A stretch of DNA of 64,000 nucleotides from Desulfovibrio sp. TomC (lineage in GTDB: Bacteria > Desulfobacterota > Desulfovibrionia > Desulfovibrionales > Desulfovibrionaceae). Each line of letters begins with the position of its first letter. Within the stretch, counting starts at the first letter, position 1. The DNA lies in contig NZ_JSEH01000001.1 of the NCBI RefSeq assembly GCF_000801335.2, positions 186,001-250,000 of the forward strand, in the 5' to 3' direction. Position numbers and translations under genes: made by a program. Under the pieces are notes generated by a model. It had not been told where the DNA came from. It ran no database searches and saw only the letters and a program-made list of their open reading frames with translations. Positions 1 through 37,983 of this stretch are shown here, piece by piece.

Positions 1-503
1 TGGCCATCGAGAATCCTGGCAACAACCGCTTGCGTCAGGCTCTGGCCGCCGCGACCGGCTTTGATTTGGTCATCATCGACTGTCCGCCCCACCTTGGTCC
101 TCTGGCCCGACAGGCGCTCACTGCGGCAAGCGGCGTCATCGTCCCCATGACCCCGGACTTTCTGGCCATGCAAAGCTTGGCCTGGCTCATGGACACCCTG
201 GCCGGTCTTTCAGCCGACCATCTGGCTCCCACCGTGGTCGGCATCGTGCTCAACCGTTTTTCCAGCCAAAAGCGCCTGCACCGCGAGGTGCAGGGCGCTG
301 TGGCCGAGCATTTTCCCGGCCTGGCCTTTGCCGGCGTCATTCGCGAAAACATCGCCCTGGCTGAAGCGCCGAGCTTTGGGCAGGACATTTTTCAGTATGC
401 GCCGCGCAGCGCCGGAGCTTCGGATTTCGCCAGAGTGTGCCGGGAAGCGGCGGCTCGGCTCAACCTTGCTCCCCTACCCGGGGCAAGCGGCATCGCCAGA
501 TAA
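1..503 (+). CDS. ParA/MinD-type P-loop ATPase, C-terminal part (5' end outside window)
   Basis: The reading frame is already open at base 3, so the gene begins upstream and only its C-terminal half is seen. The segment FDLVIIDCPPHLGPLARQAL is the Walker B and switch region of ParA/MinD ATPases; the later VVGIVLNRF and IRENIALAEAPSFGQDIF stretches match the ParA C-terminal pattern of helix and A-P-S-x-G-x-x-I/V motif. The family uses ATP-dependent dimerisation to position plasmids, chromosomes or chemoreceptor arrays. The next gene starts 11 bases after the stop, so the two are probably co-transcribed. The Walker A motif lies outside the window. In Desulfovibrio a ParA gene of this kind sits in a chemotaxis cluster, so an array-positioning role is possible but is inference. 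Confidence 0.85.
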   Translation, partial: AIENPGNNRLRQALAAATGFDLVIIDCPPHLGPLARQALTAASGVIVPMTPDFLAMQSLAWLMDTLAGLSADHLAPTVVGIVLNRFSSQKRLHREVQGAVAEHFPGLAFAGVIRENIALAEAPSFGQDIFQYAPRSAGASDFARVCREAAARLNLAPLPGASGIAR

Positions 504-514
504 GGACGTTGCAC

Positions 515-1417
515 ATGGCTACCCGTTCCAGACTCGGCCGCGACCCCTTGCAGGGCACAGCCAAACCTGCGGCCAAACAACCAGCCGCGACAAAACGCAA
601 ATCCCCGTCCCGGGCCAAAGCCGCCCCACAACCAGACGCGGTCGAACAAAACGCACCGCCAACCACCTTGACAAACGATCTGATCCGGCAGCCTGAGCCG
701 GCCGCCCCGGGCAACGGCCAGCAGGTCTTTGCGGCTGCACCCGCCAAGACGGACGCGCCCAGCCCAACCGGACAGGCTACCGCCCCACCCCCGGCTTTAG
801 GGCTGTCGCCAGCAGCTCCTGGCCTTCCTAGAGGGGACGACGCGTCCGACCAGACGACGCTGCCCGACCCGGCCGAAACGCCGACTGCGGCTGCGTCCGA
901 AACGGCGCAAGCGGATGCCCCGTCCGGGACGGCGGCCGGGCTCGTCGCTTCCCCGGGTCCCTGCCCGTCCCAAGCTGCGCCTGCCGCCCCGGACCAGGGC
1001 GCGCATCCGGTGGAGGTCTTTTTGCGCGGCGTTCTGGAAGGGTTGCTCCCTGAGGGAGAAGCTGTTTTGCGGGTGGAAGTCGATCCTGAGACCTTTGCCT
1101 TGCCGGTGGAAAAACTCTTTTATTTCAGCCATGCCCTGCAACGAATCGTGACGCCGATGGAGCTTGCGCAAGGTCCGGATTGGCGTCCGGGGGAAACCGC
1201 CGGACAACTTCCCGTGCTGACGGTCCGGTTGCGGGCGCACGGCGGCGATCGCCATGTGCTCACTCTTACTGATAACGGGGAATTCTTTCGCAGCCGACTG
1301 CCGGAATTACGACTACACATGGAGGCTTTGAAGCCGCTTGTGGCCTTTATCGTCAAACGCCAAGGGTCTGTTCGGTTGGCCCAGGGCCGTTCGATCACGT
1401 TTGAAATCATCGGCTGA
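515..1417 (+). CDS. Pro/Ala-rich protein with a possible degenerate CheA-like C-terminal domain
   Basis: A 300-residue protein; the ATG at 515 is chosen because it lies just past the ParA stop and the frame upstream overlaps ParA. Residues about 1-180 are low-complexity Pro/Ala/Gln/Thr-rich and probably unstructured. The last 120 residues look folded. A segment ending in LTLTDNGEFF followed by KPLVAFIVKRQGSVRL and ITFEI is reminiscent of the end of a CheA/GHKL ATPase domain, but the glycine boxes needed for ATP binding are missing. The product could be a scaffold or adaptor working with the ParA ATPase. I do not recognise it as a named family; the CheA resemblance is weak and by eye. Confidence 0.6.
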   Translation: MATRSRLGRDPLQGTAKPAAKQPAATKRKSPSRAKAAPQPDAVEQNAPPTTLTNDLIRQPEPAAPGNGQQVFAAAPAKTDAPSPTGQATAPPPALGLSPAAPGLPRGDDASDQTTLPDPAETPTAAASETAQADAPSGTAAGLVASPGPCPSQAAPAAPDQGAHPVEVFLRGVLEGLLPEGEAVLRVEVDPETFALPVEKLFYFSHALQRIVTPMELAQGPDWRPGETAGQLPVLTVRLRAHGGDRHVLTLTDNGEFFRSRLPELRLHMEALKPLVAFIVKRQGSVRLAQGRSITFEIIG

Positions 1418-1442
1418 CGTCGCACAGCCAAAGGAGCCGCGC

Positions 1443-1706
1443 ATGGAAAAGGACAAGAGCAAGATCAAGGTCGAAGGCGTGATGCAGATCACGGAAGTCA
1501 TCGCCAATCTGGAAAAATTGGCGACTGATATGAAGGCCGGACTGGTCACCATTGCGGCCGGGGAGGAATCCCTGACCCTACACCCGTCGGTGCTGGTCAA
1601 TGTGGATATGAAGGCCTCGCAGAAGAAAGACAAAGAGAAGTTCGCCCTCGAAATCTCCTGGAAAAAGCACAAGGAGATGGAAGGGTTCACGGAAATGGGC
1701 GAATAA
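1443..1706 (+). CDS. amphi-Trp domain protein
   Basis: An 87-residue, highly charged protein starting at the ATG at 1443, 25 bases after the preceding stop, with an AGGAG-like sequence upstream. It has the pattern of the small amphi-Trp domain: an N-terminal helix, a short strand pair around LTLHPSVLVNVDMKA, and the closing strand FALEISWKK with the conserved tryptophan. The molecular function of this domain is not established. It probably belongs to the same transcription unit as the ParA and Pro/Ala-rich genes. A long perfect hairpin follows 17 bases after the stop. Confidence 0.7.
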   Translation: MEKDKSKIKVEGVMQITEVIANLEKLATDMKAGLVTIAAGEESLTLHPSVLVNVDMKASQKKDKEKFALEISWKKHKEMEGFTEMGE

Positions 1707-1723
1707 TTTTAGCCCCTGTGCAT

Positions 1724-1763
1724 GTGTCGCCCTGGCCCGTTTTGCGTCGGGCCAGGGCGACAC
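1724..1763. terminator. Perfect 16-bp hairpin between convergent genes
   Basis: Arms GTGTCGCCCTGGCCCG (1724-1739) and its exact complement (1748-1763) enclose an 8-base T-rich loop. It lies between the convergent amphi-Trp gene (+) and HAD gene (-), so it can act as a two-way terminator or mRNA 3' stabiliser. There is no long T run after either arm, so factor-independent termination is not certain. Confidence 0.6.
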
Positions 1764-1806
1764 GCATGCGTCCGGACGACGGGGCTGACAAGCAGACTCC
1801 CAGTTA

Positions 1807-2553
1807 TCAGGGTTGTTCCTCAAAAAATCGGATGGCGTTTCGCAGTTCGCCGAAGCGGTAGATATTGTAATGGGCGGCAACGCCGTCCATTTGCTGCTGC
1901 CCCTGGCCGCTGGCAAAAAAGACCGTCCGCATTCCGGCCTCCCGGGCTCCATAAATATCCCGGTACATATCGTTGCCGACAAAGACCACTTCTTCGGGGC
2001 GCAGATGCATCCGCCGCAGGGTCAGGGCAAAGATGCGCGGATCGGGTTTGCGGTAGCCGAGGTCGCCGGAAACAACAATCGGGAAAAAATACTCGGCCAA
2101 GCCGACCATCTGCATCTCCGGCACGGCCCAGGCCGTCTGGGCATCGGACAGGGCGGCCAAGCGATAGTGCTGACGCAATTCGTCCAGAACCTCGCGCACG
2201 TCCGGATAGAGCTCCAGGCGATTGAGCGAGATGCCCCGGTAGAGCTCGGCCAGAAAATGCGGCAGTTGGGCCAGCTTGTTTTTGGGAAGCTCTGCCCCGC
2301 TGCGGGCCAGGCGGCTGGCGAGAAACTCCCGCCACACGGCCACGGCGTCGTATTCCGGAAACTGCTCCCCGCCCGCCCGCCGCTGCTCCTTGAGGATCTG
2401 ATAATAGCCCTCGCGCACATCACCCCGGCTGGTGCGAATGCCGTAGTATTTGAGCAGGTGGCTGATGGAGCGGTAGATCTGCTCGTTGCCCTCGTCGGTG
2501 TTGATGTCGATGAGCGTGCCGTTCACATCGCAGATGATTCCCCGAACGATCAT
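1807..2553 (-). CDS. HAD-superfamily hydrolase (variant motif I)
   Basis: A 248-residue HAD hydrolase. Motif I is CDVNGTLID (nucleophile Asp9), motif III is GYRKPDPRIF and motif IV is VFVGNDMYRDIYGAREAGM, with an alpha-helical cap between residues about 20 and 100. In typical HAD phosphatases the second acidic residue of DxD is the general acid/base; here it is Asn11, a change seen in HAD enzymes that are not simple phosphatases. The start ATG overlaps the stop of the upstream APH-family gene by 4 bases, so the two are translationally coupled and probably work on related substrates. The substrate cannot be told from sequence. Confidence 0.85.
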   Translation of the reverse strand: MIVRGIICDVNGTLIDINTDEGNEQIYRSISHLLKYYGIRTSRGDVREGYYQILKEQRRAGGEQFPEYDAVAVWREFLASRLARSGAELPKNKLAQLPHFLAELYRGISLNRLELYPDVREVLDELRQHYRLAALSDAQTAWAVPEMQMVGLAEYFFPIVVSGDLGYRKPDPRIFALTLRRMHLRPEEVVFVGNDMYRDIYGAREAGMRTVFFASGQGQQQMDGVAAHYNIYRFGELRNAIRFFEEQP

Positions 2554-3563
2554 GTGAGCCCTCCGAGCAAAATGACTTTGGCCTCATGGACCAGGCGTTT
2601 GCGGTACCAATCCTCCAACCAGGCGTTGCGGGCAATGCGCAGGAGGGTCAGGCCCAGGTGAAACGGCAGCCGGGCGGTCAACGCCGCAAAAGTACGCTCG
2701 CGGTCCGGGAAATGCCCGGCATATTCCCACAAGAAATGGCCGACAAACGGCTCGGCCCGGTCAATGTCGCCGGTCATCTGCAAAAAGCAGTGTTTGAGTT
2801 CGCCGCAAAGCCGCCCCACGTCGTAGATACGGTCGTCACGGTGCATCCGCTCAAGGTCGATGGCGTATACATCCTGACCTCGCCCGAACAGGAAATTGGA
2901 GGGCGTGGCGTCGCCGTGCACTGCCACCTGCACATCCTGCCACATGGCGGCCCGACCGGCGTAGCCATGCCCGAGCTCCCGCAGCCGGTCGATTCGGCGG
3001 GCGGAAATGCCGGCATTGGCGGCCAGATACCCGACCACCCGGTCGTAGTAGCCTTGGGTTCTGGCAAAATCGACCTGTTCCGGACCAGCGGTGGCGTTGT
3101 GCAGGCGGGCGAAGAAACGGGCCAGCCCGGAGAGCTTGCGAAACAGCCGTTCGCCACGGCCGCTGCCGGCTGCAGCTTCGATGACACTGTCGAGTTGTTC
3201 GCCAGCGACATGTTCGATGACAAGCAGATCGCCCAGGCTCGGGTTGACGCCCAGGGGACGGACCACATAGTCCGGCAGGGCATCAAGGCCAAGGCTTCGG
3301 GCAAAATCCAGGTTACGACGCTCATTCTCGGCGGACTGGGGCGCGTTGCTGCCGTTTAAACCCCTCAAATGGGCGTAAAATTTTCCCACAACTGTGGCCT
3401 GGGTCCATTTGTCTTCATACAAGTAGACGTCGCTGGCCGGTGAGATGCGGTACACCCGCCACCGGGGCTCACGGTCGGTGGCCGCCAATTGCGGCAAAAT
3501 GACGTCACGCAGATAGCTGTGCAGCGGGTCGGCGGCGGCGAGATGGCCGAGGTATTGGCGCAT
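2550..3563 (-). CDS. APH (aminoglycoside/choline kinase-like) family phosphotransferase
   Basis: A 337-residue protein starting at the ATG at 3563 (MRQYLGHLAA); the frame is open further upstream but that region overlaps the promoter side of the divergent CULT gene. The catalytic-loop (Brenner) motif is VHGDATPSNFLF and the metal-binding element is IDLERM, both as in the APH/choline kinase fold, where ATP-dependent phosphorylation of small hydroxyl substrates takes place. An N-terminal segment DVYLYEDKWTQATVVGKFY corresponds to the nucleotide-binding sheet with its lysine. It overlaps the following HAD gene by 4 bases, suggesting a kinase/HAD pair acting on the same metabolite. The substrate is unknown. 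Confidence 0.8.
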   Translation of the reverse strand: MRQYLGHLAAADPLHSYLRDVILPQLAATDREPRWRVYRISPASDVYLYEDKWTQATVVGKFYAHLRGLNGSNAPQSAENERRNLDFARSLGLDALPDYVVRPLGVNPSLGDLLVIEHVAGEQLDSVIEAAAGSGRGERLFRKLSGLARFFARLHNATAGPEQVDFARTQGYYDRVVGYLAANAGISARRIDRLRELGHGYAGRAAMWQDVQVAVHGDATPSNFLFGRGQDVYAIDLERMHRDDRIYDVGRLCGELKHCFLQMTGDIDRAEPFVGHFLWEYAGHFPDRERTFAALTARLPFHLGLTLLRIARNAWLEDWYRKRLVHEAKVILLGGLT

Positions 3564-3650
3564 GGCGACAACTTTGAAGCCGGCTGCGACAATTTTGTGC
3601 GGTAAGCCGGGTTGACGATTTCTTCGGAGTGTATAACCAGCCCCTGGTAT

Positions 3651-4106
3651 ATGCAAATTCTTCGGACTCTCCAACCAATCTCCCCTGCCGTCCTTTGCCT
3701 GCGCCGGCAACCGGACGAGCCCGGGGAGGTCGCCGTTCCGGCCTGGGATGCCGCGCTTGCTCCTGCACAGGATGTCACGACGCCGAAACTGGTATGCGCC
3801 CAGTGCTGCCTTCCGATCACAGCCGATGCTTGGCGTATCCCGGTGTCCGGTTCACACTCCCACGTTTTTGCCAATCCTTACGGGCAGGTGTTTCGCGTCG
3901 AGTGTTTTGCAGCCGCTCCAGGTTGTGTCACGGTTGGTCCGATCAGCCTGGATTTTTCCTGGTTTCCAGACACGGGCTGGCAGGTGGCCATCTGTGCGCG
4001 CTGCGGTCTGCATCTGGGCTGGCGCTATGCTCGCAATGCCGACGGCGGTTTTTTTTTCGGACTCATTCCCGAGCGCCTGCGTCGCAAAACGGACAATTTG
4101 GTCTGA
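3651..4106 (+). CDS. CULT-domain (cereblon-type thalidomide-binding fold) protein 1
   Basis: A 151-residue protein starting at ATG 3651. After a variable 45-residue N-terminus comes one CULT domain: zinc-binding CAQC (Cys49, Cys52) and CARC (Cys115, Cys118), the pattern GSHSHVFANPYGQVF, and SWFPDTGW followed by HLGWRY and FFFGL. This is the beta-tent fold that in eukaryotic cereblon binds thalidomide and cyclic-imide degrons. The three tryptophans of the aromatic cage are all present (Trp104, Trp110, Trp124), so a cyclic imide or uridine-like ligand could bind. No signal peptide or second domain is visible. The physiological role of bacterial CULT proteins is not established. A second CULT gene follows on the same strand. 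Confidence 0.85.
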   Translation: MQILRTLQPISPAVLCLRRQPDEPGEVAVPAWDAALAPAQDVTTPKLVCAQCCLPITADAWRIPVSGSHSHVFANPYGQVFRVECFAAAPGCVTVGPISLDFSWFPDTGWQVAICARCGLHLGWRYARNADGGFFFGLIPERLRRKTDNLV

Positions 4107-4269
4107 TTTATGCTTGGTGGAGTTTCAAGTAGGTTGCCCGGACAGCTTGCCAGATTCCGATGGCTGCCTATCTTAAACTTGACCAAGCAAGTAGGAAATT
4201 GCCTCTTTGACCGCAAAGCCAAGACGGGTGCGCCGACAATGCACCCAGGCCACCCGGGAGGGTGCAAAC

Positions 4270-4725
4270 ATGAACAAACACCTGACGCTTATCCCCACGA
4301 CTCCGCCCATCAGCCTTTCCTGGGAGGAGGATGCGAGCGGGCCGGCAGAGCCCGTGAAGCCGATCTTCAATAATCCGTCTCTGGCCACAGCCGATCGCAT
4401 GGTCTGCGCTCATTGCGGCGAGGACATCACGCACTCCAGCCTGCGAATCGCCGTCCACGGCTCCCATCGTCATGCCGTGCCCACCGAGTATGGCATCGAT
4501 CAGGAAATCGGCTGTTTTTCCCTGGCTCCGGGATGCCTGTCCGCCGGGCATTTCGCCCTGGATTTCGGCCATCAGGAAGATGGCTACTGGCAGATGGCCC
4601 TGTGCGCCAGTTGCGGCAACCATCTGGGCTGGCATCATCAGACCGACAGCGACATCGGTTTTTACGGGCTGATTCTTGACCATCTGGCCGCCGCGCCCGA
4701 AGACAGTCGAGAAAAAGCTGCTTAA
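4270..4725 (+). CDS. CULT-domain protein 2 (altered aromatic cage)
   Basis: A 151-residue protein with a strong GGGAGG ribosome site before the ATG at 4270. It carries one CULT domain with CAHC (Cys46, Cys49), GSHRHAVPTEYG, CASC (Cys112, Cys115), HLGWHH and FYGLI, aligning over its length with the CULT protein encoded 163 bases upstream. The first cage tryptophan is replaced: the SWFPDTGW segment of its neighbour is here GHQEDGYW, so the cage is His101, Trp107, Trp121. The pair looks like an old duplication with diverged ligand preference. The 163-base spacing leaves room for a separate promoter. Confidence 0.83.
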   Translation: MNKHLTLIPTTPPISLSWEEDASGPAEPVKPIFNNPSLATADRMVCAHCGEDITHSSLRIAVHGSHRHAVPTEYGIDQEIGCFSLAPGCLSAGHFALDFGHQEDGYWQMALCASCGNHLGWHHQTDSDIGFYGLILDHLAAAPEDSREKAA

Positions 4726-4769
4726 CGGCGCTTGGCGCAAGAACCGCTTCTTCCTACCCGGTTTTCGCT

Positions 4770-4821
4770 CTGAAAGCCTCCCGCCGGAGGCTTTCAGCCC
4801 CGGAGGCAGCACTGCCCCCGG
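4770..4821. repeat. Two adjacent intergenic hairpins
   Basis: A perfect 12-bp stem CTGAAAGCCTCC (4770-4781) pairs with 4786-4797 across a 4-base loop, and is followed by a near-perfect 10-bp stem at 4800-4821 (one mismatch). Neither is followed by a T run. GC-rich paired hairpins of this style occur between genes elsewhere in this window and probably belong to an interspersed repeat class. Confidence 0.5.
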
Positions 4822-4845
4822 ACCCGCCCCACCGTCCCCGAGCAT

Positions 4846-4874
4846 AAAAAAAGCCGGGGACCGAAGCCCCCGGC
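4846..4874 (-). terminator. Rho-independent terminator of the 4897-5139 gene
   Basis: On the minus strand GCCGGGG/CCCCGGC arms (4868-4874 and 4853-4859) close an 8-base loop and are followed by seven T residues (4846-4852). It lies 22 bases past the stop of the small minus-strand gene. Confidence 0.85.
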
Positions 4875-4896
4875 CTGTATCGGCGCGAAAACGAAT

Positions 4897-5139
4897 CTAG
4901 GCGGCACTGACCGTGACAACGTCTTCGAATTCGGCTGTCACTTTGAAGGTCTTGCCGCCGGCATCGACAAAAAAGTCGTTACCCGGAAAGAGCTGTGTTG
5001 TGGCCGTGAAGGCGTCGCCAATGTAGACGTCCTTGGCCTCGCCGTTGGTTTCGAAACGGATGGTCGTCCCGTCGCCAAGCGTGACCATTTGTTCGTGGTC
5101 AATGCTGACCGGCAAATCGGCCTCGGTGAAGTTGCTCAT
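4897..5139 (-). CDS. Small conserved-looking acidic protein, unknown function
   Basis: An 80-residue acidic protein. The start at 5139 (MSNFTEADLP) is chosen because GGAGG lies 5 bases before it; an ATG 12 bases upstream overlaps that ribosome site. The sequence is mostly alternating beta strands (TIRFETNGEAKDVYIGDAF, KTFKVTAEFEDVVTV), suggesting a small beta domain; there is no signal peptide, cysteine or membrane segment. It is a single gene with its own strong terminator and a good ribosome site, so it is likely expressed well. No family recognised. Confidence 0.65.
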   Translation of the reverse strand: MSNFTEADLPVSIDHEQMVTLGDGTTIRFETNGEAKDVYIGDAFTATTQLFPGNDFFVDAGGKTFKVTAEFEDVVTVSAA

Positions 5140-5256
5140 CCTCTCCTCCATGTTTGGCGGTTTCAGGCCTATGGCACCCGCGCCGTGCGGGTCGAAACCA
5201 GAGGGATTTGAGCCAACTTACGCCCGATCTGCCCGAAAGCAAAGACTTTTCTCAAA

Positions 5257-6228
5257 TTACCATCCCAGCACGTAGGCAAAAATCAACGGGGCCACGATGG
5301 AGGCGTCGGAGTTGATCATGAATCGGGGCGTGTCGATGTCGAGCTTGCCCCAGGTGATCTTCTCGTTGGGCACAGCACCCGAATAGGAGCCATACGACGT
5401 GGTGGAATCGCCGATCTGGGCGAAGTAGGCCCAAAACGGCGTGTCTTCCCGCTCCAGGTCCTGAATGAGCATGGGCACGACGCAGATGGGAAAATCGGCT
5501 GCAATGCCGCCGCCGATCTGGAAAAAGCCGATGGGCGTGCCGGCCTTGCCCTGCTCGGTGTACCACTTAGCCAGGACTTCCATCTGCTCGGTGCCGGTGC
5601 GGATGGCGCTGTGGCTCTTGACGTTGCCCAGAATCACTTCGGCGCAAAAAATATTGCCAAGCGTGCTGTCTTCAAAACCCGGGGAATAGATGGTCAGGCC
5701 CTTTTCCTTGGCCGCCAGCACCCAGGAGTGCTCCTTGGGGACCTGGAAGAACTGCTCGATGTCGGGCTGATCCAGCAGGGCGTACATGTATTCGTACGGG
5801 AACATGGGCTTGCCGGAATCGGCAGCGGCGGCCCACAGCTTGGAGATGCGGCGCTGCACCTGGCGCAGGACGCCTTCGGGAATGCAGGTATCCGTAACCC
5901 GATTGAATCCCTGGTCGTACAGCGCCTTTTCCGCCTCGGGCGAAAGGTCGCGGTACTCGGGGACCATCTTGTATTCGTTATGATTAAAGAGGTTGAACAG
6001 GTCCTCTTCAAGGTTGGCGGCGGTGCAGCTGATGGCATGGACCTTGTCCTGGCGGATCATCTCGGCCAGGGAAATACCCAATTCACAGGTGCTCATGGCG
6101 CCGGCCATGGTGAGAAACATCTTGCCGCCCCGGCCCAACAGATCGTTCCAGGCCTTGGCCGCATCGAGCGTCTCGCGGGCGTTGAAGTGACGGAAATTGG
6201 TTTCCATGAAACGGGATATGGAAGACAT
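5257..6228 (-). CDS. Deoxyhypusine synthase family protein
   Basis: A 323-residue protein with AAGGAGT before the ATG at 6228. It shows the deoxyhypusine synthase fold signatures: KMFLTMAGAMSTCELG for NAD binding, FFQIGGGIAADFPICVVPM, and a C-terminal EKITWGKL in which Lys295 corresponds to the catalytic lysine that forms the enzyme-imine intermediate, followed by INSDASIVAPLIF. In eukaryotes and archaea this enzyme transfers the aminobutyl group of spermidine to eIF5A; bacteria have no eIF5A, and bacterial relatives act on small amines, for example as homospermidine synthases. It follows the GDPD gene by 14 bases in the xseA-dxs run. The exact substrate here is inferred only. Confidence 0.88.
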   Translation of the reverse strand: MSSISRFMETNFRHFNARETLDAAKAWNDLLGRGGKMFLTMAGAMSTCELGISLAEMIRQDKVHAISCTAANLEEDLFNLFNHNEYKMVPEYRDLSPEAEKALYDQGFNRVTDTCIPEGVLRQVQRRISKLWAAAADSGKPMFPYEYMYALLDQPDIEQFFQVPKEHSWVLAAKEKGLTIYSPGFEDSTLGNIFCAEVILGNVKSHSAIRTGTEQMEVLAKWYTEQGKAGTPIGFFQIGGGIAADFPICVVPMLIQDLEREDTPFWAYFAQIGDSTTSYGSYSGAVPNEKITWGKLDIDTPRFMINSDASIVAPLIFAYVLGW

Positions 6229-6242
6229 TCTAACTCCTTGGG

Positions 6243-7064
6243 TTATTCCCGGGCGGGACCGTCGCCTTGGTCGGCCCGCTCCTCAATGGCACCCGGGGAC
6301 GTGGGCAAAAAGCCCTCGAAAACAATGTTGTCCCCATGACGCAAGGCTTTGACTCTATCCTCTCTCGATCGCACCGTCCAGAGCAGAACCGGCCATCCAA
6401 GCCATCGGACCAGAGCGACCGGTCCATGCGGCAGTCCCCGCCAGCCATAGGCAATACAGTGGGGTCGGGCTATGGCGGCATGGAACAGATTGGCATAGGC
6501 GAACCGCTTGAGCCGGCCCATGGCCGGTGCGTCGGCAAAATCGCAGGCAATGAGGCAGCGCGGCAGCTCCGGGGCCAGGAAGGCCAGACGGGCCAGCGAC
6601 CAGGGATGAAACGAGGCCACGACCACCGGGCCGGAGTACCCGGCCAACAGGGCGGCCACGGCCTGTTCCAGACGCCCCGCCCGGCCCTGAGACTTGAGTT
6701 CGATATACAGCGGCACCCGGCCGGCCACCAGGGACAAGACCTCGGCCAACAGCGGCGGGTGCTCCCCGGAGCCCAAAAGACAAAGGCGGGGCAGATCAGC
6801 GCAGGTCAGCTGGTCGAGAGGGCCGGCCTGTCCGGTCAGACGGTTCAGGCCGCGGTCGTGAAAGACCACAACGCCGCCGTCGGCCAGAAGCCGCACGTCG
6901 CATTCAATGCCGTATCCGGCGTCACAGGCGGCTGCAAAGGCCGGCAGGGAGTTCTCCGGGCCGGTATCCGGGCCATGGAGGCCCCGGTGAGCAAAGGGGA
7001 CGGCGGTCAGCCAGTCCAGGTCCCTCCCCGGACGCTTGGCCGACGAGGCCTGGCTACACCGCAA
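6243..7064 (-). CDS. Glycerophosphodiester phosphodiesterase family protein
   Basis: The catalytic GDPD pattern is clear: FAHRGLHGPDTGPENSLPAF (HRG and PEN), then YGIECDVRLLADGGVVVFHD (E-x-D and the catalytic His) and YIELKSQGR. These TIM-barrel enzymes hydrolyse glycerophosphodiesters to glycerol-3-phosphate and an alcohol. The start is uncertain: there is no ATG outside the dxs coding region, so I use an in-frame TTG at 7064 that overlaps the dxs stop; ATGs at 7139-7148 would overlap dxs by about 90 bases. No signal peptide is convincing, so a cytoplasmic enzyme of about 273 residues is likely. Confidence 0.8.
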   Translation of the reverse strand: MRCSQASSAKRPGRDLDWLTAVPFAHRGLHGPDTGPENSLPAFAAACDAGYGIECDVRLLADGGVVVFHDRGLNRLTGQAGPLDQLTCADLPRLCLLGSGEHPPLLAEVLSLVAGRVPLYIELKSQGRAGRLEQAVAALLAGYSGPVVVASFHPWSLARLAFLAPELPRCLIACDFADAPAMGRLKRFAYANLFHAAIARPHCIAYGWRGLPHGPVALVRWLGWPVLLWTVRSREDRVKALRHGDNIVFEGFLPTSPGAIEERADQGDGPARE

Positions 7065-8955
7065 GCAGGCGAACAAGGGCAGCCTTGATGCCGTTTTGGT
7101 CAATGCCGCAAAGCGCCCGCAGGGCATTTTGTCCGCCATGCTCCACAAAGGCGTCGGGCAGGCCCAGCCGGTGTACGGTCAACCCGGAGAGTGCCCCGGC
7201 GTCGGAGAGCAATTCCAGTACGGCCGCGCCAAAGCCCCCCTGAAGCACATTTTCCTCGACCGTCAGCCACAGTGGATAGCGGCCGGCCAGGGCAAGGAGT
7301 TGCGCTTCGGGCAATGGCTTGATGAAACGGGCGTTCAACACCGCCACTTCCCTGCCCGTCTCGGCGGCCAGGGCATCGGCAGCCGCCACGGCCGGCATGA
7401 CCCGGCTGCCGATGGCAACGATCAGGGCATCGCTTCCCTCGCGCACCATCGCACCCTGGCCGAGGGGCAACGGTTCGACGACCTCGGGCACGGGCAGGCC
7501 CACGCCGGCCCCGCGGGGATACCGAATGGCGACCGGACCGTCATGGGCCAGGGCGGTGGCCAGCATGGCCGGCAGTTCGGCTTCGCTGCCCGGGGCCATG
7601 AAAACAAGATTGGGGATGTGACGCAGATAGGAAATATCAAAAGCCCCGTGATGGGTGGCTCCATCCTCGCCTACCAGCCCACCCCGGTCGAGGCACAGGG
7701 TCACGGGCAGATTTTGCAGGCACACGTCATGGACAATCTGGTCGTAGGAGCGCTGCATGAAGGTGGAATAGATGGCAACGACCGGTTTGTAGCCGGCCAT
7801 GGCCAGTCCGGCGGCAAAGGTCACGGCATGCTGCTCACAGATGCCGACGTCCACAAAGCGTTCGGGGAGTTCCGTGGCAAAACGCGACAGCCCCGTGCCC
7901 TCGGGCATGGCGGCCGTGATGGCCATGACCCGGGGGTCGGCCTTGGCCGAAGCGAGCAAGGCCTCGCCAAAAACCTGGGTGTAGCTCGGGGCGCAGACCC
8001 CGACTTTTTCCACCAGCCCGGTTTCCGGCTCAAAGCAGCCCACGCCGTGGAAATAGGTGGGATTGTTCTCGGCCGGCTCGTAGCCGCGTCCTTTCTTGGT
8101 CAGCACATGGACCAGCACCGGTCCCTCAATGTCTTTGACTTCCTTGAAGACCTCAATGAGCCGCTCGGTATTGTGCCCGTCGATGGGACCAAGATAATTG
8201 AACCGAAACGCCTCAAAGAGCATTCCGGGCGTGAAAAAGCTCTTAAACGACTCCTCGCCGCGACGGACATAGCCCATGAGGTCGCCGCCGTAGGGCAAGG
8301 AACTGATCCAGCTTTCCATGTCCTTTTTGAGCCGCTTGACCCAGCGCTGGTTAAGCTTGCGGCTTAAAAAGAGCGAGAGCGCCCCGACGTTTTTGGAGAT
8401 GGACATTTCGTTGTCGTTCAGTACGACAATGAGCCGTCCGCCCCACCCTCCCGCCTGGTTCAGTCCCTCGTAGGCCAGACCGGCGGTCATGGAACCATCG
8501 CCGATAATAGCCACCACGTCGTGGTCCTCACCCTTGCGGTCCCGGGCCATGGCCAGCCCCAAGGCGGCCGAGATGGAGGTGCTGGAGTGGCCGACGCCGA
8601 AGTGATCAAAGGGGCTCTCGGCCGGACGCGGAAAGCCGCTGACCCCGCCCATGGTTCGCAGGGTGTGAAACTGTTCCTGACGGCCGGTCAGAATTTTGTA
8701 GGCATAGGCCTGATGCCCGACGTCCCAGACAAGTTTATCCCTGCCGGGATCGAAGGCGGCAAGCAGGGCCAGCGTCAGTTCCACAACCCCCAGCGACGGG
8801 GCCAGATGGCCGCCGTTCATGGATACCGTGCCGATGATGACCTGCCGGATCTCGTCGGCCAGCACGGTCCTTTCCTCGGCGGAAAGACCGGCCACGTCAT
8901 GCGGATGCTTGATGCGCGTGAGGATGTGAAGGGCCGCGTCGCTCATTGCCGTCAT
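7054..8955 (-). CDS. dxs: 1-deoxy-D-xylulose-5-phosphate synthase
   Basis: A 633-residue thiamine-diphosphate enzyme that condenses pyruvate and glyceraldehyde-3-phosphate in the first step of the MEP isoprenoid pathway. Seen: KLVWDVGHQAYAYKILTG, the ThDP motif beginning GDGSMTAGLAYEGLN, NDNEMSISKNVG, and the transketolase central and C-terminal domains (DVGICEQHAVTFAAGLA, LTVEENVLQGGFG). Length is normal. The ATG at 8955 has AAGGA 8 bases upstream. It sits directly downstream of ispA (38-base gap), so early and middle steps of isoprenoid synthesis are co-expressed. Confidence 0.97.
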   Translation of the reverse strand: MTAMSDAALHILTRIKHPHDVAGLSAEERTVLADEIRQVIIGTVSMNGGHLAPSLGVVELTLALLAAFDPGRDKLVWDVGHQAYAYKILTGRQEQFHTLRTMGGVSGFPRPAESPFDHFGVGHSSTSISAALGLAMARDRKGEDHDVVAIIGDGSMTAGLAYEGLNQAGGWGGRLIVVLNDNEMSISKNVGALSLFLSRKLNQRWVKRLKKDMESWISSLPYGGDLMGYVRRGEESFKSFFTPGMLFEAFRFNYLGPIDGHNTERLIEVFKEVKDIEGPVLVHVLTKKGRGYEPAENNPTYFHGVGCFEPETGLVEKVGVCAPSYTQVFGEALLASAKADPRVMAITAAMPEGTGLSRFATELPERFVDVGICEQHAVTFAAGLAMAGYKPVVAIYSTFMQRSYDQIVHDVCLQNLPVTLCLDRGGLVGEDGATHHGAFDISYLRHIPNLVFMAPGSEAELPAMLATALAHDGPVAIRYPRGAGVGLPVPEVVEPLPLGQGAMVREGSDALIVAIGSRVMPAVAAADALAAETGREVAVLNARFIKPLPEAQLLALAGRYPLWLTVEENVLQGGFGAAVLELLSDAGALSGLTVHRLGLPDAFVEHGGQNALRALCGIDQNGIKAALVRLLAV

Positions 8956-8992
8956 TGCGTTTTTTCCTTGTCCCTGCCGAGGCTTGCAACCG

Positions 8993-9892
8993 TCACTGCA
9001 CCCGGACAACGATGTAGCGGGCCAGATCCCGTAAAAAATCGGCGGCCTCGCCCACATACGGCTCAAGGGCGGCCACGGCGGCGGCTACGCGGTCCTCGGC
9101 CAGCCGGCGGCTTTCGTCAAGACCGATCATGGACGGGTAGGTGTTCTTGCCCTGCTCCCGGTCGCTGCCCACGGGTTTGCCCAGGGTGGCGGCGTCGCCG
9201 ATCTCATCAAGAATATCGTCGACGATCTGAAAGGCCGCGCCAATGGCCTCGCCGTATTCCCGGGTTCGAGCCACACCCTCCTCGCCTGCGCCGGCCAGAA
9301 TCGCCCCGCAGACACAGGAGGCCGTGATGAGCGCACCGGTTTTAAGCGTCTGCATCCGGGCCAGTTCGGCCAGGGTCACGCCCTCTCGGGCGGTGTAGTC
9401 CATGTCCAGGACCTGGCCGCCGACCATGCCGGCTGCCCCGGCGGCCCGGGCCGCTTCGGACAAGGCCGGCAGGACCAGTTCAGCGCCAACGCCCGGCCAG
9501 GCGCGGCCCATGCAACCAAAGGCCTCGGTCAACAAGGCGTCGCCGGCCAGGATAGCCCCGGCTTCGCCGTAAATCTTATGATTGGACGGCCGGCCGCGAC
9601 GCAGATCGTCGTCGTCCATGGCCGGCAGGTCGTCATGAACAAGGGAATAGGTGTGAATAAGCTCGAAGCCGGCGGCAAAAGGCATGACCCTGGCCCGCTT
9701 GGCCTCGAAAAGTTCGGCAAAGGTCAGGCACAGGACCGGCCGCAGGCGCTTGCCGCCGGCCAGCAGGGAATATTCCATGGCGGAAAGCAGATTTTCCGGC
9801 ACGCCGCGTTCCCGCATCCGCACACCGAACCGCTCCCGCAAATAAACCTCGACCTCGGCCGCCAACGCAGCCAACCGTTCCTTCACCGTCAC
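8993..9892 (-). CDS. ispA: Polyprenyl (farnesyl/geranylgeranyl) diphosphate synthase
   Basis: A 299-residue trans-isoprenyl diphosphate synthase. The first Asp-rich motif is HDDLPAMDDDDLRRGRPSNH and the second is FQIVDDILDEIGD, both binding magnesium and the allylic diphosphate. The DDx4D form of the first motif is the bacterial farnesyl diphosphate synthase type. The chain-length residues before the first motif (YSLVHDD) fit C15 to C20 products. Its ATG overlaps the xseB stop by 4 bases; the xseA-xseB-ispA-dxs order is widespread in bacteria. Confidence 0.95.
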   Translation of the reverse strand: MTVKERLAALAAEVEVYLRERFGVRMRERGVPENLLSAMEYSLLAGGKRLRPVLCLTFAELFEAKRARVMPFAAGFELIHTYSLVHDDLPAMDDDDLRRGRPSNHKIYGEAGAILAGDALLTEAFGCMGRAWPGVGAELVLPALSEAARAAGAAGMVGGQVLDMDYTAREGVTLAELARMQTLKTGALITASCVCGAILAGAGEEGVARTREYGEAIGAAFQIVDDILDEIGDAATLGKPVGSDREQGKNTYPSMIGLDESRRLAEDRVAAAVAALEPYVGEAADFLRDLARYIVVRVQ

Positions 9893-10152
9893 AACGCCTC
9901 CCCGACCGGACCGGCAGCGCCGGTCCCCTCGTCGTCTTTCACGTCAAAGGGCCGCAACGTCCCGTCCTCGCCCGCCAGGGCGATTTCCATCCGGGCGGCC
10001 TCCAGCCGCTTGCGGCAGGTCCCCACCAGCCCCATGCCCTCTTTGTACAGGGCCACGCCCTTTTCCAGCGGCACGTCGCCGGCTTCCAGGCGCACGGCTA
10101 TGCGCTCCAAACGCTCCAGGGCCTTTTCAAAGGATTCTTCTTTCACGCTCAA
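9889..10152 (-). CDS. xseB: Exodeoxyribonuclease VII small subunit
   Basis: An 87-residue protein with the XseB helical hairpin: SFEKALERLERIAVRLEAGD, then PLEKGVALYKEGMGLVGTCRKRL. Several XseB subunits bind one XseA to form the single-strand-specific nuclease. The stop of xseA overlaps its start by 4 bases and its own stop overlaps ispA by 4 bases, so all three are translationally coupled. The last 20 residues are acidic and variable. Confidence 0.95.
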   Translation of the reverse strand: MSVKEESFEKALERLERIAVRLEAGDVPLEKGVALYKEGMGLVGTCRKRLEAARMEIALAGEDGTLRPFDVKDDEGTGAAGPVGEAL

Positions 10153-11558
10153 GGCTTTTCTCCAGCATCCGGCCGGTTTTCCGACACAACGGCCCGGACG
10201 CGGCCTTCATACACCATGATGTCGAGCTTGTCGCCGGGGCGCACATCGGCTTCCCGGCGCAGAAATTTCCCGGTGCGGGCAACTGTCGTCAGGCTGTAGC
10301 CCCGGGCCAGCGGTCCGGTCGGGTCCAGGCCGGCCAGATGCGCCTGGGCCAACTCCAGTCGCCGCTCACGGTCGGCCAGATACATCCTGGCTGCCGTCGT
10401 CAGTCGTTCCAGACGTCGGTCCAGGGTTTGCTCCCGGACATCCAGGCTCTGGGCGTCAAAACGTCGGGACACCCGGGCCTCCAGATCGTCCAAGCGCCGG
10501 GCAATGGCGTCCAGGTAGCCAGTCCCGGCCCGGGCCAGCCGCCCGGTTGCGCCGGCAAAGGCCTCGTCCAGCCGGGCCAGCCGCCGCGCCGGCGACAACC
10601 AGGACAGTCCCCGGGCCAAAACAGCCAGCTCCCGCTCCCGGGTCGCCAGGAGTTGCGAAGCCAGCCGGCGAAGGGCCATTTCGGCGTCATCCAGGCGCTG
10701 GGCCAACTGCTCGCGCTCAGGCCACAAGAGCTGGGCAGCATGGGAGGGCGTGGCCGCACGGACATCGGCCACCATGTCGGCGATGGTCACGTCCACTTCA
10801 TGGCCGACACCGGTCAGGACCGGCACGGGCGAGGCAAAGATGGCCCGAGCCACGTCCAACGTGTTAAAAGCCCACAAGTCTTCCAACGAACCGCCGCCGC
10901 GGATGAGCACCAACACCTCGGCCCAGTCGTCGGCCACAGCCCGCAGCATGGCCCGCACGATGCCGGCCGGGGCGGCGTCTCCCTGCACCAAGGTTGGATA
11001 GACCCGGACCTGCGCCCCATGCCCGCGCTCGCGGCCGATACGGATAAAATCACGCACCGCAGCCCCGGCCGGGGCCGTTATGACCGCCACCCGGCCAGGA
11101 TGCGGCGGCAGCGGCCGCTTCCTGGCCGTCTCAAAATAGCCCTTGGCCGCCAGATCCTTTTTGAGCGCCTCAAATTCCAGCCACAACCGGCCAGCCCCGA
11201 CCTCCTGCACCACCTCGGCCACCAGCTGGTAGACGCCGCGCTGGGCATAGACCGTGAGCCGCCCGGCTACCATGATCTCCATGCCGTCGCTGAGCAGTTC
11301 CGCCAACGGCCGGTCCAGGACTTCGCCGGTCAGCGGATCATAGCGCTCCCCGCCCGCCGATACCCGGCCGGCCTGGGCGCCGCGAAACCAGACCACGGCC
11401 AACGAGGCCTCGGCGTCGCGCAAGGAAAAATAAAAATGCCCGGACCCCGGACGCGACAAATTCACCACCTGCCCGCGCACCCAGACAAAGGGGAACTCCG
11501 ACTCGACCACGTCCTTCAAGGACCGCGTCAGCTCACCGACTTCAAACACATGGGGCAT
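10149..11558 (-). CDS. xseA: Exodeoxyribonuclease VII large subunit
   Basis: A 469-residue protein with the XseA order: N-terminal OB fold (FPFVWVRGQVVNLSRPGSGH), then the nuclease domain with VAVITAPAGAAVRDFI, LIRGGGSLEDLWAFN and TGVGHEVDVTIADMVADVRA, a long coiled coil, and a C-terminal segment GYSLTTVARTGKFLR. The start at 11558 (MPHVFEVGEL) matches the family N-terminus; the frame upstream of it runs through a non-coding hairpin. It is the first gene of the xseA-xseB-ispA-dxs run. Confidence 0.95.
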   Translation of the reverse strand: MPHVFEVGELTRSLKDVVESEFPFVWVRGQVVNLSRPGSGHFYFSLRDAEASLAVVWFRGAQAGRVSAGGERYDPLTGEVLDRPLAELLSDGMEIMVAGRLTVYAQRGVYQLVAEVVQEVGAGRLWLEFEALKKDLAAKGYFETARKRPLPPHPGRVAVITAPAGAAVRDFIRIGRERGHGAQVRVYPTLVQGDAAPAGIVRAMLRAVADDWAEVLVLIRGGGSLEDLWAFNTLDVARAIFASPVPVLTGVGHEVDVTIADMVADVRAATPSHAAQLLWPEREQLAQRLDDAEMALRRLASQLLATRERELAVLARGLSWLSPARRLARLDEAFAGATGRLARAGTGYLDAIARRLDDLEARVSRRFDAQSLDVREQTLDRRLERLTTAARMYLADRERRLELAQAHLAGLDPTGPLARGYSLTTVARTGKFLRREADVRPGDKLDIMVYEGRVRAVVSENRPDAGEKP

Positions 11559-11587
11559 TAATTGTGTCCGTGAGACTGGGAGACGAA

Positions 11588-11634
11588 CCGGGGGAGGGAA
11601 CCTTTTTTTTGGAAAAAAGGGTTCCCTCCCCCGG
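11588..11634. repeat. Long GC/AT-layered hairpin upstream of xseA
   Basis: A perfect 15-bp stem, CCGGGGGAGGGAACC (11588-11602) with 11620-11634, encloses an inner T-run/A-run pairing that extends it by about six pairs. It lies 30 bases upstream of the xseA start. The layout (GC stem outside, T/A stem inside) is that of a two-way terminator; it also resembles an interspersed element type I associate with Desulfovibrio genomes. It could separate proS from xseA or sit in the xseA leader. Confidence 0.6.
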
Positions 11635-11952
11635 ACCCCCACCCTCCCCAAAAACTTTTCAAGGGGTTACAGGGGAATGGCCGGCCATTTGCGCCACTGC
11701 GTTAAGCCAGCAAAAGGTCAGTAAATCCTATCAATCGAAAGCACTTTGCAAAAGGGACCAGAGCCGCACAACACACCCTCCAGACAACCCTCGCGACACG
11801 AGCATTCGCTTCACTGCCGTGGCCCCACACATCTTCTCAGGTCTTCAGGGTCTGTATTCCCTAACCTGTCGTCATCACTCGCACAACCGTGCCCCCTGTC
11901 TGGTCGCTCTTGCGCGAACCTGTCGGCCCCGCTTCGGGACCGAGGGCAACTT

Positions 11953-12022
11953 GGGGTACGCCGTTGGGGCCGGTGCGACCGGCGCGCCAGCGACGGTCGT
12001 ATCGGCCCCAACGGCGCACCCC
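11953..12022. repeat. Imperfect inverted repeat with 29-base arms
   Basis: Left arm 11953-11981 and right arm 11994-12022 pair with three mismatches (core CGCCGTTGGGGCCG present in both) around a 12-base loop. No coding sequence is visible between or beside the arms. It may be an RNA hairpin, a nested remnant of a miniature mobile element, or a protein-binding cruciform. Confidence 0.65.
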
Positions 12023-12114
12023 ATTCTCGGCAGTCACCCGCCGCAGCACATCCTCCCGACCCGCTTCCCGCACTCCCGCCGCCCCATCCGGGGGTCCGGG
12101 GGGATGATCCCCCC

Positions 12115-12182
12115 GGCAGGTCCAGGACAGCGTCCTGGCAGGGTCCGGGACAGCGTCCCGGCAGGGTCCGGGACAGCGTCCC
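12115..12182. repeat. Three tandem 22-23-base repeats, each with an internal hairpin
   Basis: Units at 12115-12136, 12137-12159 and 12160-12182; units 2 and 3 are identical and unit 1 differs by three substitutions and one base deletion. Each unit contains GGGACAGCGTCCC or its variant, which can fold into a 5-bp hairpin, and unit 1 keeps pairing through compensatory changes (AGGACAGCGTCCT). The array begins 17 bases after the proS stop on the minus strand. Confidence 0.75.
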
Positions 12183-20976: not shown

Positions 20977-23900
20977 CTAGGCCTTGCGCACGTTGACCAT
21001 GAAGGCCTTGGTCTCGGGGATGCCCGTATTGGGATCGCCGACTGACGGACACAGGATGTTGGCCGAATCACCGCCGTTTTTGGGCCAGGTCCAGCCATAA
21101 TGCCAGGGGATGCCCACCTGGTGGATGGTCTGGCCAAGCACGGTAAACGGCTGGATGCGTTCGGTGACGATGGCCTTGGCCCAAAGCGACCCGCGGGTGC
21201 AGTCGAGAATGACCTTTTCACCGTTTTTAATGCCGCGCATCGTGGCCAGCTCCGGGCTCATCTCGCAGAACATCTGCGGTTCCGCCTCAAGGAGCCAGGG
21301 AGAGTTGCGGGTCATGACGCCGGTCTGCCAGTGCTCGGTCACCCGGTAGGTGGAGCAGATAAACGGATACCGGGGATCGCAGGAGGCGTGAATGTCGGCC
21401 GGGCCGGTGAACTTGAGCGCCGTCGGGTTGTGCAATTGCTTGGAGAAGGGGTTCTCGGCAATGGGACACTCCAGCGGCTCGTAGTGCTCGGGCAAGGGGC
21501 CGTCGTTGCGGCCCGGGCCAAAGATCTGGCCCATGCCGTCGCCGGTCATGATAAACGGGAACTTGCCCTTTTCGGTGTCGGCCATGGGTGGCCAGGGACC
21601 GTCAGGCACATCGCCTTCCCATTTGCCGTTGACCCAGGCAATGACCGGCTTGTCCGGCTGGTAGGGCTTGCCTTGGGGATCGACCGAGGCACGGTTGTAG
21701 AGCACCCGGCGGTTGACCGGCCAGGCCCAGGACCAGGCCGGGAACAACCCGATCTTGGCCTGCATGGCCGTTTGGGACTTATCGCGCCGGGCGGACATGT
21801 TCTTGTCGGTGTAGGAACCGCAATAGACCCAGGTGCCGGAGCAGGTGGAGCCGTCGTTTTGCAGCAGGGCAAAGCTCGGCACCGGATCACCGGGCTTAAA
21901 GGTCTTGTCCGCGTCGCCGACCTTGAGGGTTTTTTCCGTGAGGAAATAGCCGTTGATGCGCTTGGCGACCTTGTGGGGATCGTAGATGTGGTTGGTGGCC
22001 ACATCCCAATTGAGGTTTTTGATGGGATCGGGATAGGCCCCGCCTTCTTTGGCGTAAAGCTCCCGGATCTTTTCAAACAACTCATAGATAATATCGCCAT
22101 CGGGCTTGGAGTCGCCGGACGGTGCCTGGGCCACATTGCGCCACTGCATCCAACGGCCGGAGTTGGAGATGGAGCCTTCCTTTTCAAAGGACACGGCGCA
22201 CGGCAGATAAAAGACCTCGGTCTTGATCTTCTTGGGGTCCATGCCCGGGCCCTTCCAGAAGGAACCGGTCTCGGTCTCGAACATGTTGACCGTGACCATC
22301 CAGTCAAGCTTGGTCATGGCCTCACGGGTCTTGTTGGAGTTGGCGGTGCTGGCGGCCGGATTCTGGCCCCAGGCGAAAAAGCCCTTGAAGGCTCCGCCAA
22401 GCATGACGTCAAACAGCGACAGCCAGGAGTAGTCCTTGCCCGGCTCAAGCTTGGGCAGATAGGAATAGCCGGTGTCGAGATCCTGGTTGGGATACATCGA
22501 CTTGATGAAGCTGGCCAGGTACTTGGGCCGGTTGCCCCACCAGTTGGCGCTTTGCGGTTCCTTGGTGACCGGGGTGTTCTTCTCGTTGTACTCGGCCAGG
22601 GTCTGCATCGCCGCCGTGGGCGTGGGGATGTAGCCGGGCAGAATGTGGAAGAGCAGCCCCTGGTCGGTGGAACCCTGGACGTTGGCCTCGCCGCGCAGGG
22701 CGTTAATGCCGCCGCCGGCCACACCCATGTTGCCAAGAAGCAGCTGGATGATGGACATAGCGCGGATGTTCTGTACGCCGACGGTGTGCTGGGTCTGGCC
22801 CATGGCGTAGAGCATGGTGCCGGACTTTTCCGGTTTGCCCGTGGCGGCGTAGGTCTGGTAGACCTTCTGCAAATCGGCCACCGGGGTGCCGGTAATAGCC
22901 GAAACAGACTTCATGTCATAACGGTCGTAATGGGCCTTCATGATCTGGTAAACGCAACGAGGATCTTTGAGGGTCGGATCCTTCTTGATGCGTCCCTGGT
23001 CGTCCTTGGCAAAGCTCCAGGTCGACTTGTCATAGGCGCGCTTCTCAGCGTCAAAGCCGCTGAACAGGCCGTCCTTGAAGTCGTACTTGTCGCCCAGGAT
23101 AAACGAGGCATTGGTATAATTGACGACGTAGTCTTTAAAGATCAGGTTGTTGGCCAGGATGTACCGGATGAGACCGCCGAAGAAGGGAATATCGGAGCCG
23201 GACCGGAGCCGGGCAAACACGTCGGCATGCTGGGACGTACGGGTGTAGCGCGGATCCACGTGGATCATGGTCGCGCCCTTGTCCTTGGCCCGAAGCACCC
23301 ATTTAAACGAGATGGGATGGTTCTCGGCGGCGTTGCTGCCGATAATGAAAATGCAATCCGAATTGACGATGTCGATCCAGTGGTTCGTCATCGCCCCGCG
23401 TCCGAACGACTCTGCCAGAGCCGCTACAGTTGCGCTGTGTCAGATACGGGCCTGGTGCTCAATGTAACTTAACCCCATGGCCCGGAGCATGGCCTGGTAG
23501 ATCCAGCATTCTTCGTTGTCCATAGCGGCGGAACCGACCGAGGCGATGCCTTCGCAGCGGTTGACCACCCGGCCCTTGCTGTCCTTGGTCGTAAAGCTGC
23601 CGTCGCGGGCTTCCTTGACCTTGCGGGCAATGCGGTCGAGCGCCCAATCCCAGGATTTTTCTTCCCAGTTCTCGCTGTAGGGAGCACGGTACATGACTTT
23701 GAGAATACGGCGGTCGTTTTTCCCAAGCTGGTAATGGGACGCACCCTTGGGACACAGAGCGCCTTCGTTGATCGGATGGTCGGGATCGCCCTCAATGTTG
23801 ACCACCCTCCCCTTGCCGTCCTTGTCCGTGCTGGCTATGAGCCCGCAGCCCACCGAACAGTAGCAGCACACCGAGGTGGTCTGCTTGGTGAACTTGAGTT

Positions 23901-24015
23901 TGGCCGCCTGCGCTTCAGCATAGGCCGGCTTCAGATCGAAGCCGAGTCCGCCGAAAGCGGTCACTGCGGTCGTCGCGCCAGCAATTTTCAGGAACTCTCG
24001 CCGGTTCCACTCCAT
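20977..24015 (-). CDS. fdhA: Formate dehydrogenase alpha subunit, selenoprotein (in-frame UGA = Sec192)
   Basis: A 1012-residue molybdo/tungsto-enzyme oxidising formate to CO2. The N-terminus has a Tat signal (NRREFLKIAGATTAVTAFGG). The [4Fe-4S] site is SVCCYCSVGCGL plus the later ALCPKG. The frame is broken by one TGA at 23442-23440, set in EHQARI-U-HSATVAALAESFG, exactly the selenocysteine context of formate dehydrogenases; a hairpin follows directly. Reading through, the frame stays open to 20977 with all the bis-MGD-binding regions and a normal length, so this is one selenoprotein gene and not two fragments. fdhB follows; accessory genes lie upstream on the same strand. Confidence 0.95.
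23406..23442 (-). promoter_or_regulatory. Sec UGA codon and candidate bacterial SECIS hairpin in fdhA
   Basis: The UGA (23442-23440) is followed 15 bases later by GCGGCTCT-GGC-AGAGTCGT (23424-23406), an 8-pair stem with two G-U pairs and a 3-base loop. Bacterial SECIS elements lie directly after the UGA within the coding sequence and bind SelB. The spacing is in the usual range. Pairing was done by eye. Confidence 0.75.
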
Positions 24016-37677: not shown

Positions 37678-37983
37678 CTACCACCTTCTCGGCGGCGGGT
37701 AATATCCCGGAGGAGGATAATATCCCGGAGGCGGCGGGTAATAATACACCGGCGGCGGCGGGTAATACACCGGTGGCGGAGCAACATAGACCGGCGGCGC
37801 GGGTGCGTAGTACGGCGCCGCCAGCAGCCCGCCAACCACGCCTCCCAACACACCGGCTCCGAAGGCTACGCCGGCTCCCGGCCCCGGTCCCGGCCCTGGA
37901 CCAGGGCGCGGTTGGGCCAATACGACACTTGCCGAAAGCATGAGTCCGCATACGCCCAGCACGACAAATTTCATTCGCATCAT
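37678..37983 (-). CDS. Exported Pro/Tyr-rich low-complexity protein
   Basis: A 101-residue protein; GAGG lies 6 bases before the ATG at 37983. Residues 1-23 are a signal peptide ending SASVVLA-Q. The mature part has three low-complexity zones: a PGPGPGPGPG run, a glycine-zipper-like hydrophobic stretch (GAGVLGGVVGGLLAA), and a C-terminal array of PPP-Y units (PPPVYYPPPPVYYYPPPP and similar). Such proteins sit in the outer membrane or cell surface; tyrosines could cross-link or stack. A strong terminator follows 17 bases after the stop. No named family recognised. Confidence 0.7.
   Translation of the reverse strand: MMRMKFVVLGVCGLMLSASVVLAQPRPGPGPGPGPGAGVAFGAGVLGGVVGGLLAAPYYAPAPPVYVAPPPVYYPPPPVYYYPPPPGYYPPPGYYPPPRRW

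Follow-up and report, generated by a model that had tools for sequence, protein, structure and literature searches.

Adjacent CULT genes in Desulfovibrio sp. TomC: a canonical tri-tryptophan cage beside a paralog that lacks part of it

The 64,000-nt stretch of Desulfovibrio sp. TomC analyzed here (the window; contig NZ_JSEH01000001.1, positions 186,001 to 250,000) carries two neighboring genes for CULT (cereblon-type) proteins on the same strand, and the question they raise is whether both encode the same kind of imide receptor or whether one of them has been put to another use. Bacterial single-domain CULT proteins are already known, mainly from delta-proteobacteria in the account given in PMC4287342. 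The closest known protein is MsCI4 of Magnetospirillum gryphiswaldense (cereblon isoform 4, MGR_0879; PDB 4v2y), in which W79, W85 and W99 are described as forming the pocket, Y101 as forming its floor, and the backbone of F77 and W79 as binding the imide (PMC8900816). According to the structural description of MsCI4 in PMC4449219, N50-P51 and W79 sit in two flexible regions that hold and carry W79, the region of the NPxG hairpin fixes this residue by a hydrogen bond, thalidomide and uridine are bound with low micromolar affinity, and a YW/AA mutant is deficient in binding. Cereblon itself is reported to recognize C-terminal cyclic imides (PMC12117711; title of PDB 9nr3). All residue positions given below follow the MsCI4 numbering.

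Both products are 151 amino acids long and they are ~40% identical: CULT1, which we call type A, is encoded at 3651..4106 and CULT2, type B, at 4270..4725, both on the plus strand. In phmmer searches they matched MsCI4 with E values of 5e-26 (CULT1) and 4e-17 (CULT2, residues 43-145), which confirms the initial annotation of a same-strand CULT pair, and the homology of CULT2 to CULT proteins extends over the whole domain (type B profile, E 8.6e-20). The zinc signature of two CxxC motifs is present in both proteins, as had also been noted at the outset. For CULT1, the structural modeling then proposed yields an AlphaFold2 model that superposes on MsCI4 and has the beta-tent fold; W79, W85 and W99 are all in place, as are F77, Y101 and the NPxG motif on the inserted hairpin, and CULT1 is a plain member of the bacterial CULT family. 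CULT2 retains W85 and W99, but W79 is replaced by His within FGHQ (FSWF in the canonical form), TEYG stands at the place of NPxG with TE for NP, so that Asn50 and Pro51 are replaced together with Trp79 and Phe80, and position 101 is His. Judging from its sequence, we call CULT2 a CULT-derived variant, since it is a CULT protein by descent and by its zinc signature but lacks the full set of three Trp and the NPxG motif. The suggestion that both proteins carry the imide-binding site is therefore supported for CULT1, with its intact thalidomide-type cage, but not for CULT2, which is without Trp79, Phe80 and Asn50.

The proposed placement among the CULT, Yippee and Mis18 proteins stood as far as MsCI4-type homology is concerned, but not for Yippee-Mis18 itself (PF03226), which gave E values of 0.18 for CULT1 and 0.046 for CULT2 (12.4 and 14.3 bits, below the Pfam cut-off of 26.6 bits). 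Yippee, Mis18, MsrB and GFA are beta-tent relatives of the same fold class as CULT in the classification of Lupas et al. (2015; PMC4287342), and no Pfam family matched CULT1 or CULT2 above its cut-off; a GFA match was seen for CULT2 only, at E 0.056 and under the cut-off. When searched singly, type B members gave weak Pfam matches to zinc-binding families, among them PknG_rubred in 5 of 11 (best E 6e-4), which we take as a probable reflection of CxxC similarity. The distance to vertebrate cereblon is larger: its thalidomide-binding domain (4ci1, from chicken according to PMC4287342) is matched by CULT2 only at E 0.17 and by the type B profile at 0.03, and the CULT proteins described here differ from cereblon in having neither a LON domain nor the DDB1-binding part.

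We infer that the pair belongs to Solidesulfovibrio (14 genomes) from the named relatives that carry type B genes, which are Desulfovibrio sp. DV (89% identity to CULT2), S. aerotolerans (74%), S. magneticus (73-75%) and S. alcoholivorans (60%), together with two MAGs. The genus holds 32 CULT open reading frames (ORFs): 11 intact type A genes and one broken type A, 14 of type B, and six of a third type, C, which is present in six species in the gene order A, C, B. Two or three CULT matches adjoin in 12 of the 14 species, with the broken type A as one of the three in G259. No adjacent multiple matches were found elsewhere among 348 genomes of the class, which bears out the remark that a same-strand pair is unusual, and in a phylum sample of 395 genomes the one outside genome with a second CULT match has it as a fragment on another contig. 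Three weak matches from the family (G042, G125 and G070) were dropped when a CULT profile gave no confirmation. Against the B profile, which contains 11 of the 14 type B genes and not the other three, the type B genes score 233-289 bits and the type C genes 162-182 bits, and nothing outside the genus exceeds 103 bits (348 class genomes).

The two main types differ in how well they are retained. Type B is found in all 14 species and is open across the domain in each; for the type B gene of G267, "intact" refers to the domain only, because the start is unreadable in frame owing to an undetermined base. An intact type A occurs in 11 of the 14; G259 has a broken copy, and G258 and G261 have none. 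In the gap where the gene would be expected, G261 shows a remnant of type A (E 7e-7, against 4e-4 for the best of 40 shuffles) and G258 a borderline one (E 7e-5, against 1e-4 for the best shuffle). We also observed a conserved N-terminal segment before the zinc domain of type B (HLTL..TT.PP ... N..LA..DR; window 4270-4400) that is variable in type A and in CULTs outside the genus; a regular-expression search for this motif gave 20/80 and was set aside.

As a reference for the residues of the three types we used 108 full-length CULTs that lie outside the genus; 71 of them belong to the family, 34 to further families in the phylum sample, and 3 are named records. Left out of this set were the duplicates L102, L107 and L117, the fragment L172, the partial sequence L173, MsCI4 itself and L158, which has a TAG inside; the broken A copy in L034 was likewise left out of the type A counts. 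In L158, the sole CULT match of genome G245, the TAG lies at the codon of the first cage Trp and may be a natural nonsense codon, a sequencing error or a sign of decay. W79, W85, W99, N50 and F80 are present in all 108 outside sequences and P51 in 107, position 101 is F, Y or W in all 108, and all four zinc Cys are found in 107. Fifteen columns are at least 95% conserved in this set, and each of the 11 type A sequences keeps all 15. Among the 20 sequences of types B and C, by contrast, N50, W79 and F80 each occur in none and P51 in four, while the other 11 columns are kept with the exception of column 61 (19 of 20, with one F-to-Y change). CULT2 and its 13 orthologs are alike in having no Trp79, Phe80 or Asn50 and in having His rather than an aromatic residue at position 101. 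Since the B and C losses fall on N50, P51, W79 and F80 and the other columns are kept, the loss is concentrated in the imide site and in the hairpin that holds it. Two further positions set type B apart: all 14 have Q at position 56, where 101 of the 108 outside CULTs have F or Y, and 13 of the 14 have an acidic residue at position 55. The best 10 of 44 order-level matches by the B profile are canonical as well. All 11 type A sequences carry Thr at position 83, a residue present there in 0 of the 108 outside CULTs, and because of this type A may be drifting too.

Without W79, F80 and the NP of the hairpin, CULT2 is unlikely to bind thalidomide-type imides in the canonical mode, and we infer from these replacements that it has lost imide binding. 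An alternative is that both proteins bind the same imide- or uracil-type ligand, CULT2 more weakly or more broadly, so that the pair would extend the dosage or range of one receptor. CULT2 does keep W85, W99 and the zinc Cys, and the chief caution is that the two canonical hydrogen bonds to the ligand in MsCI4 are made with backbone atoms (residues 77 and 79), so that an incomplete pocket might bind all the same. However, N50, W79 and F80 are missing from 20 of 20 type B and C sequences, and position 79 in type B may be H, Q, L, K, G or T, a variability that one would not expect at a site holding the same ring; we regard a shared ligand as unlikely.

A further proposal concerned the neighboring genes. 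Upstream of the pair and on the minus strand lie an APH-type phosphotransferase (2550..3563, start codon picked by eye; PF01636, E 7.8e-12) and a HAD-family hydrolase (1807..2553; PF00702, E 2.5e-20), from which the initial annotation had drawn the hint that the CULT proteins work with them in a small-molecule or damaged-protein (cyclic imide) pathway. In each of the 14 species of the genus the kinase and HAD genes do flank the CULT locus, and to this extent the survey of co-occurrence suggested at the time was positive. However, they are transcribed away from the CULT genes and were found beside CULT in none of the 51 stretches from other genera (five of which span only 2-3.5 kb). Among 288 family genomes, moreover, nine outside the genus have the kinase at E <= 1e-40; eight of these lack any CULT match, and in the ninth the two lie on different contigs. 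A common pathway is accordingly improbable, and we judge the two genes to be bystanders outside the system.

Downstream of CULT2, an 84-aa ORF (4897-5151, minus strand) with no Pfam or NCBIfam family over cut-off is followed by a gene for a deoxyhypusine-synthase-like protein (5257-6228, minus strand; PF01916, E 2.7e-37), whose best score of 95.5 bits against 450 is well under the listed NCBIfam equivalog cut-offs. Both are present in 12 of the 14 species, with identities in 11 genus relatives of 76-83% for the ORF and 85-97% for the deoxyhypusine-synthase-like protein; in one of the other two species the contig stops directly after CULT2, and in the second, G258, the 2.6 kb that are left contain neither gene. 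Clusters of ORFs within 7 kb of CULT genes that recur in at least three genera (named by eye) were regulator-like (32 ORFs, 9 genera), ABC-transporter-like (13 ORFs, 5 genera) and LysR-like (16 ORFs, 3 genera). The two largest clusters of the whole set merge unrelated and antisense frames, recurring clusters lie at scattered distances or come from a single genus, and the nearest LysR-like ORFs are nearly all in g38; as candidate partners of CULT they were rejected as large superfamilies or genus synteny. By eye, no gene is common to the nearest ORFs of 18 loci, although two of the loci (g16 and g2) share one similar neighbor. PCMT (PF01135), tested for co-occurrence with CULT, is over its cut-off in 282 of 288 genomes and is thus too widespread to be informative.

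A weak sigma-70-like element between the two genes (TTGCCA-16-TATCTT, 4147..4174, plus strand; 1 found vs 0.5 expected) could be a separate promoter for CULT2. Aligned in 13 relatives the site looks conserved by eye, but a strict rescan requiring at least 9 of 12 matches recovers it in only 4 of 13. No RNA element scored above its gathering score in window positions 1-12000. There is no phage or plasmid match that would indicate a mobile origin of the CULT genes, searches of viral contigs with short CULT1 patterns found none, and PHROGs and PADLOC gave no matches. Elsewhere in the window, we noted an Amphi-Trp domain protein (1443-1706, plus strand; TIGR04354, E 6e-17) lying downstream of two ORFs, one with no family match and one that is ParA-like by eye; a formate-dehydrogenase-like ORF (named by eye; 20977-24015, minus strand) with one in-frame TGA at 23442-23440, after which the same frame continues and which looks like a selenocysteine codon; and short tandem repeats at 12112-12182 (23 nt, 3.1 copies) and 37717-37799 (21/24 nt, 2-3 copies).

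If CULT1 and CULT2 formed a heteromer, Trp79 of CULT1 might complete the CULT2 pocket in trans. The genes adjoin in the genus, and an intertwined MsCI4 dimer with Trp79 contributed in trans has been reported for one crystal form, which its authors themselves describe as "seemingly highly artificial" (PMC4449219). The retention pattern speaks against such an arrangement, since type A is absent in two species and broken in a third, so that type B does not need it in these three; we consider a heteromer very improbable.

The origin of the two genes was examined with a tree of 112 domains, in which the bootstrap is not fully settled. Types B and C share one branch of length 1.28 with support of 100/100, and the individual types are supported at 97/92 (B), 100/96 (C) and 84/76 (A), whereas the three types jointly lie on one side of a branch with support of only 79/86. 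These sequence relationships fit a duplication close to the base of the genus, with fast change on the B/C stem thereafter; both genes most likely arose there, when a single-domain CULT gene was duplicated in tandem. Median dN/dS (Nei-Gojobori, own script) is 0.27 in type A and 0.36 in type B, with type C at 0.23; dN is higher in A than in B in 46 of 55 species pairs, and the synonymous divergence of type B is also lower than that of A. As the median dN/dS of B is not below that of A, the retention of type B has no match in stronger per-site constraint. That CULT2 is a decaying duplicate without function, as its loss of residues present in 108 of 108 outside CULTs might suggest, is scarcely credible given that type B has an uninterrupted reading frame over the domain in all 14 species, with a median pN/pS of 0.45, an omega of 0.36 and 60 invariant columns in 11 aligned sequences, and that the copy broken or missing in 3 of 14 is the canonical A instead.

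We therefore favor, with fair though far from complete confidence, an overall explanation in which tandem duplication gave rise to an ordinary imide/uracil-cage binder, CULT1, and a repurposed scaffold, CULT2, with the kinase and HAD genes as bystanders. By analogy with MsCI4, CULT1 would be a zinc-held beta-tent whose three-Trp cage probably accommodates a small ring that presents an imide edge; candidate ligands are a uracil- or uridine-like ring, or a cyclized Asn or Gln at a protein C-terminus. CULT2 has kept the zinc signature and two Trp while giving up the first cage Trp, the adjacent Phe and the NP of the hairpin, and probably uses the resulting remodeled, more polar face for a different ligand or a protein partner. 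Because CULT2 has lost part of the pocket yet is present in every member of the genus examined, the CULT fold has probably been reused for something else.

CULT2 differs from MsCI4 both in its missing N50, P51, W79, F80 and Y101 and in being one of an adjacent pair, and we found no report of cage-less or tandem bacterial CULT paralogs in the open-access literature searched, which is no proof of their absence. In that literature, ligand searches for bacterial CULT proteins start from the three-Trp cage. A cage-less paralog indicates which CULT positions are dispensable without loss of the protein, and, having lost the NP hairpin together with Trp79, it is informative about what keeps the cereblon pocket in shape. 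The side-by-side arrangement of a cage-bearing and a cage-less copy amounts to a built-in control, with which binding screens or deletions would separate the role of the fold from that of the cage; should CULT1 and CULT2 both prove to be imide binders, the pocket as usually defined would be too narrow. Whether types B and C constitute a new functional class of CULT proteins seems to us evenly balanced: they may represent a scaffold freed from the imide cage and directed at a different ligand, chemical mark or partner, which the genus would keep more faithfully than the imide receptor from which it came.
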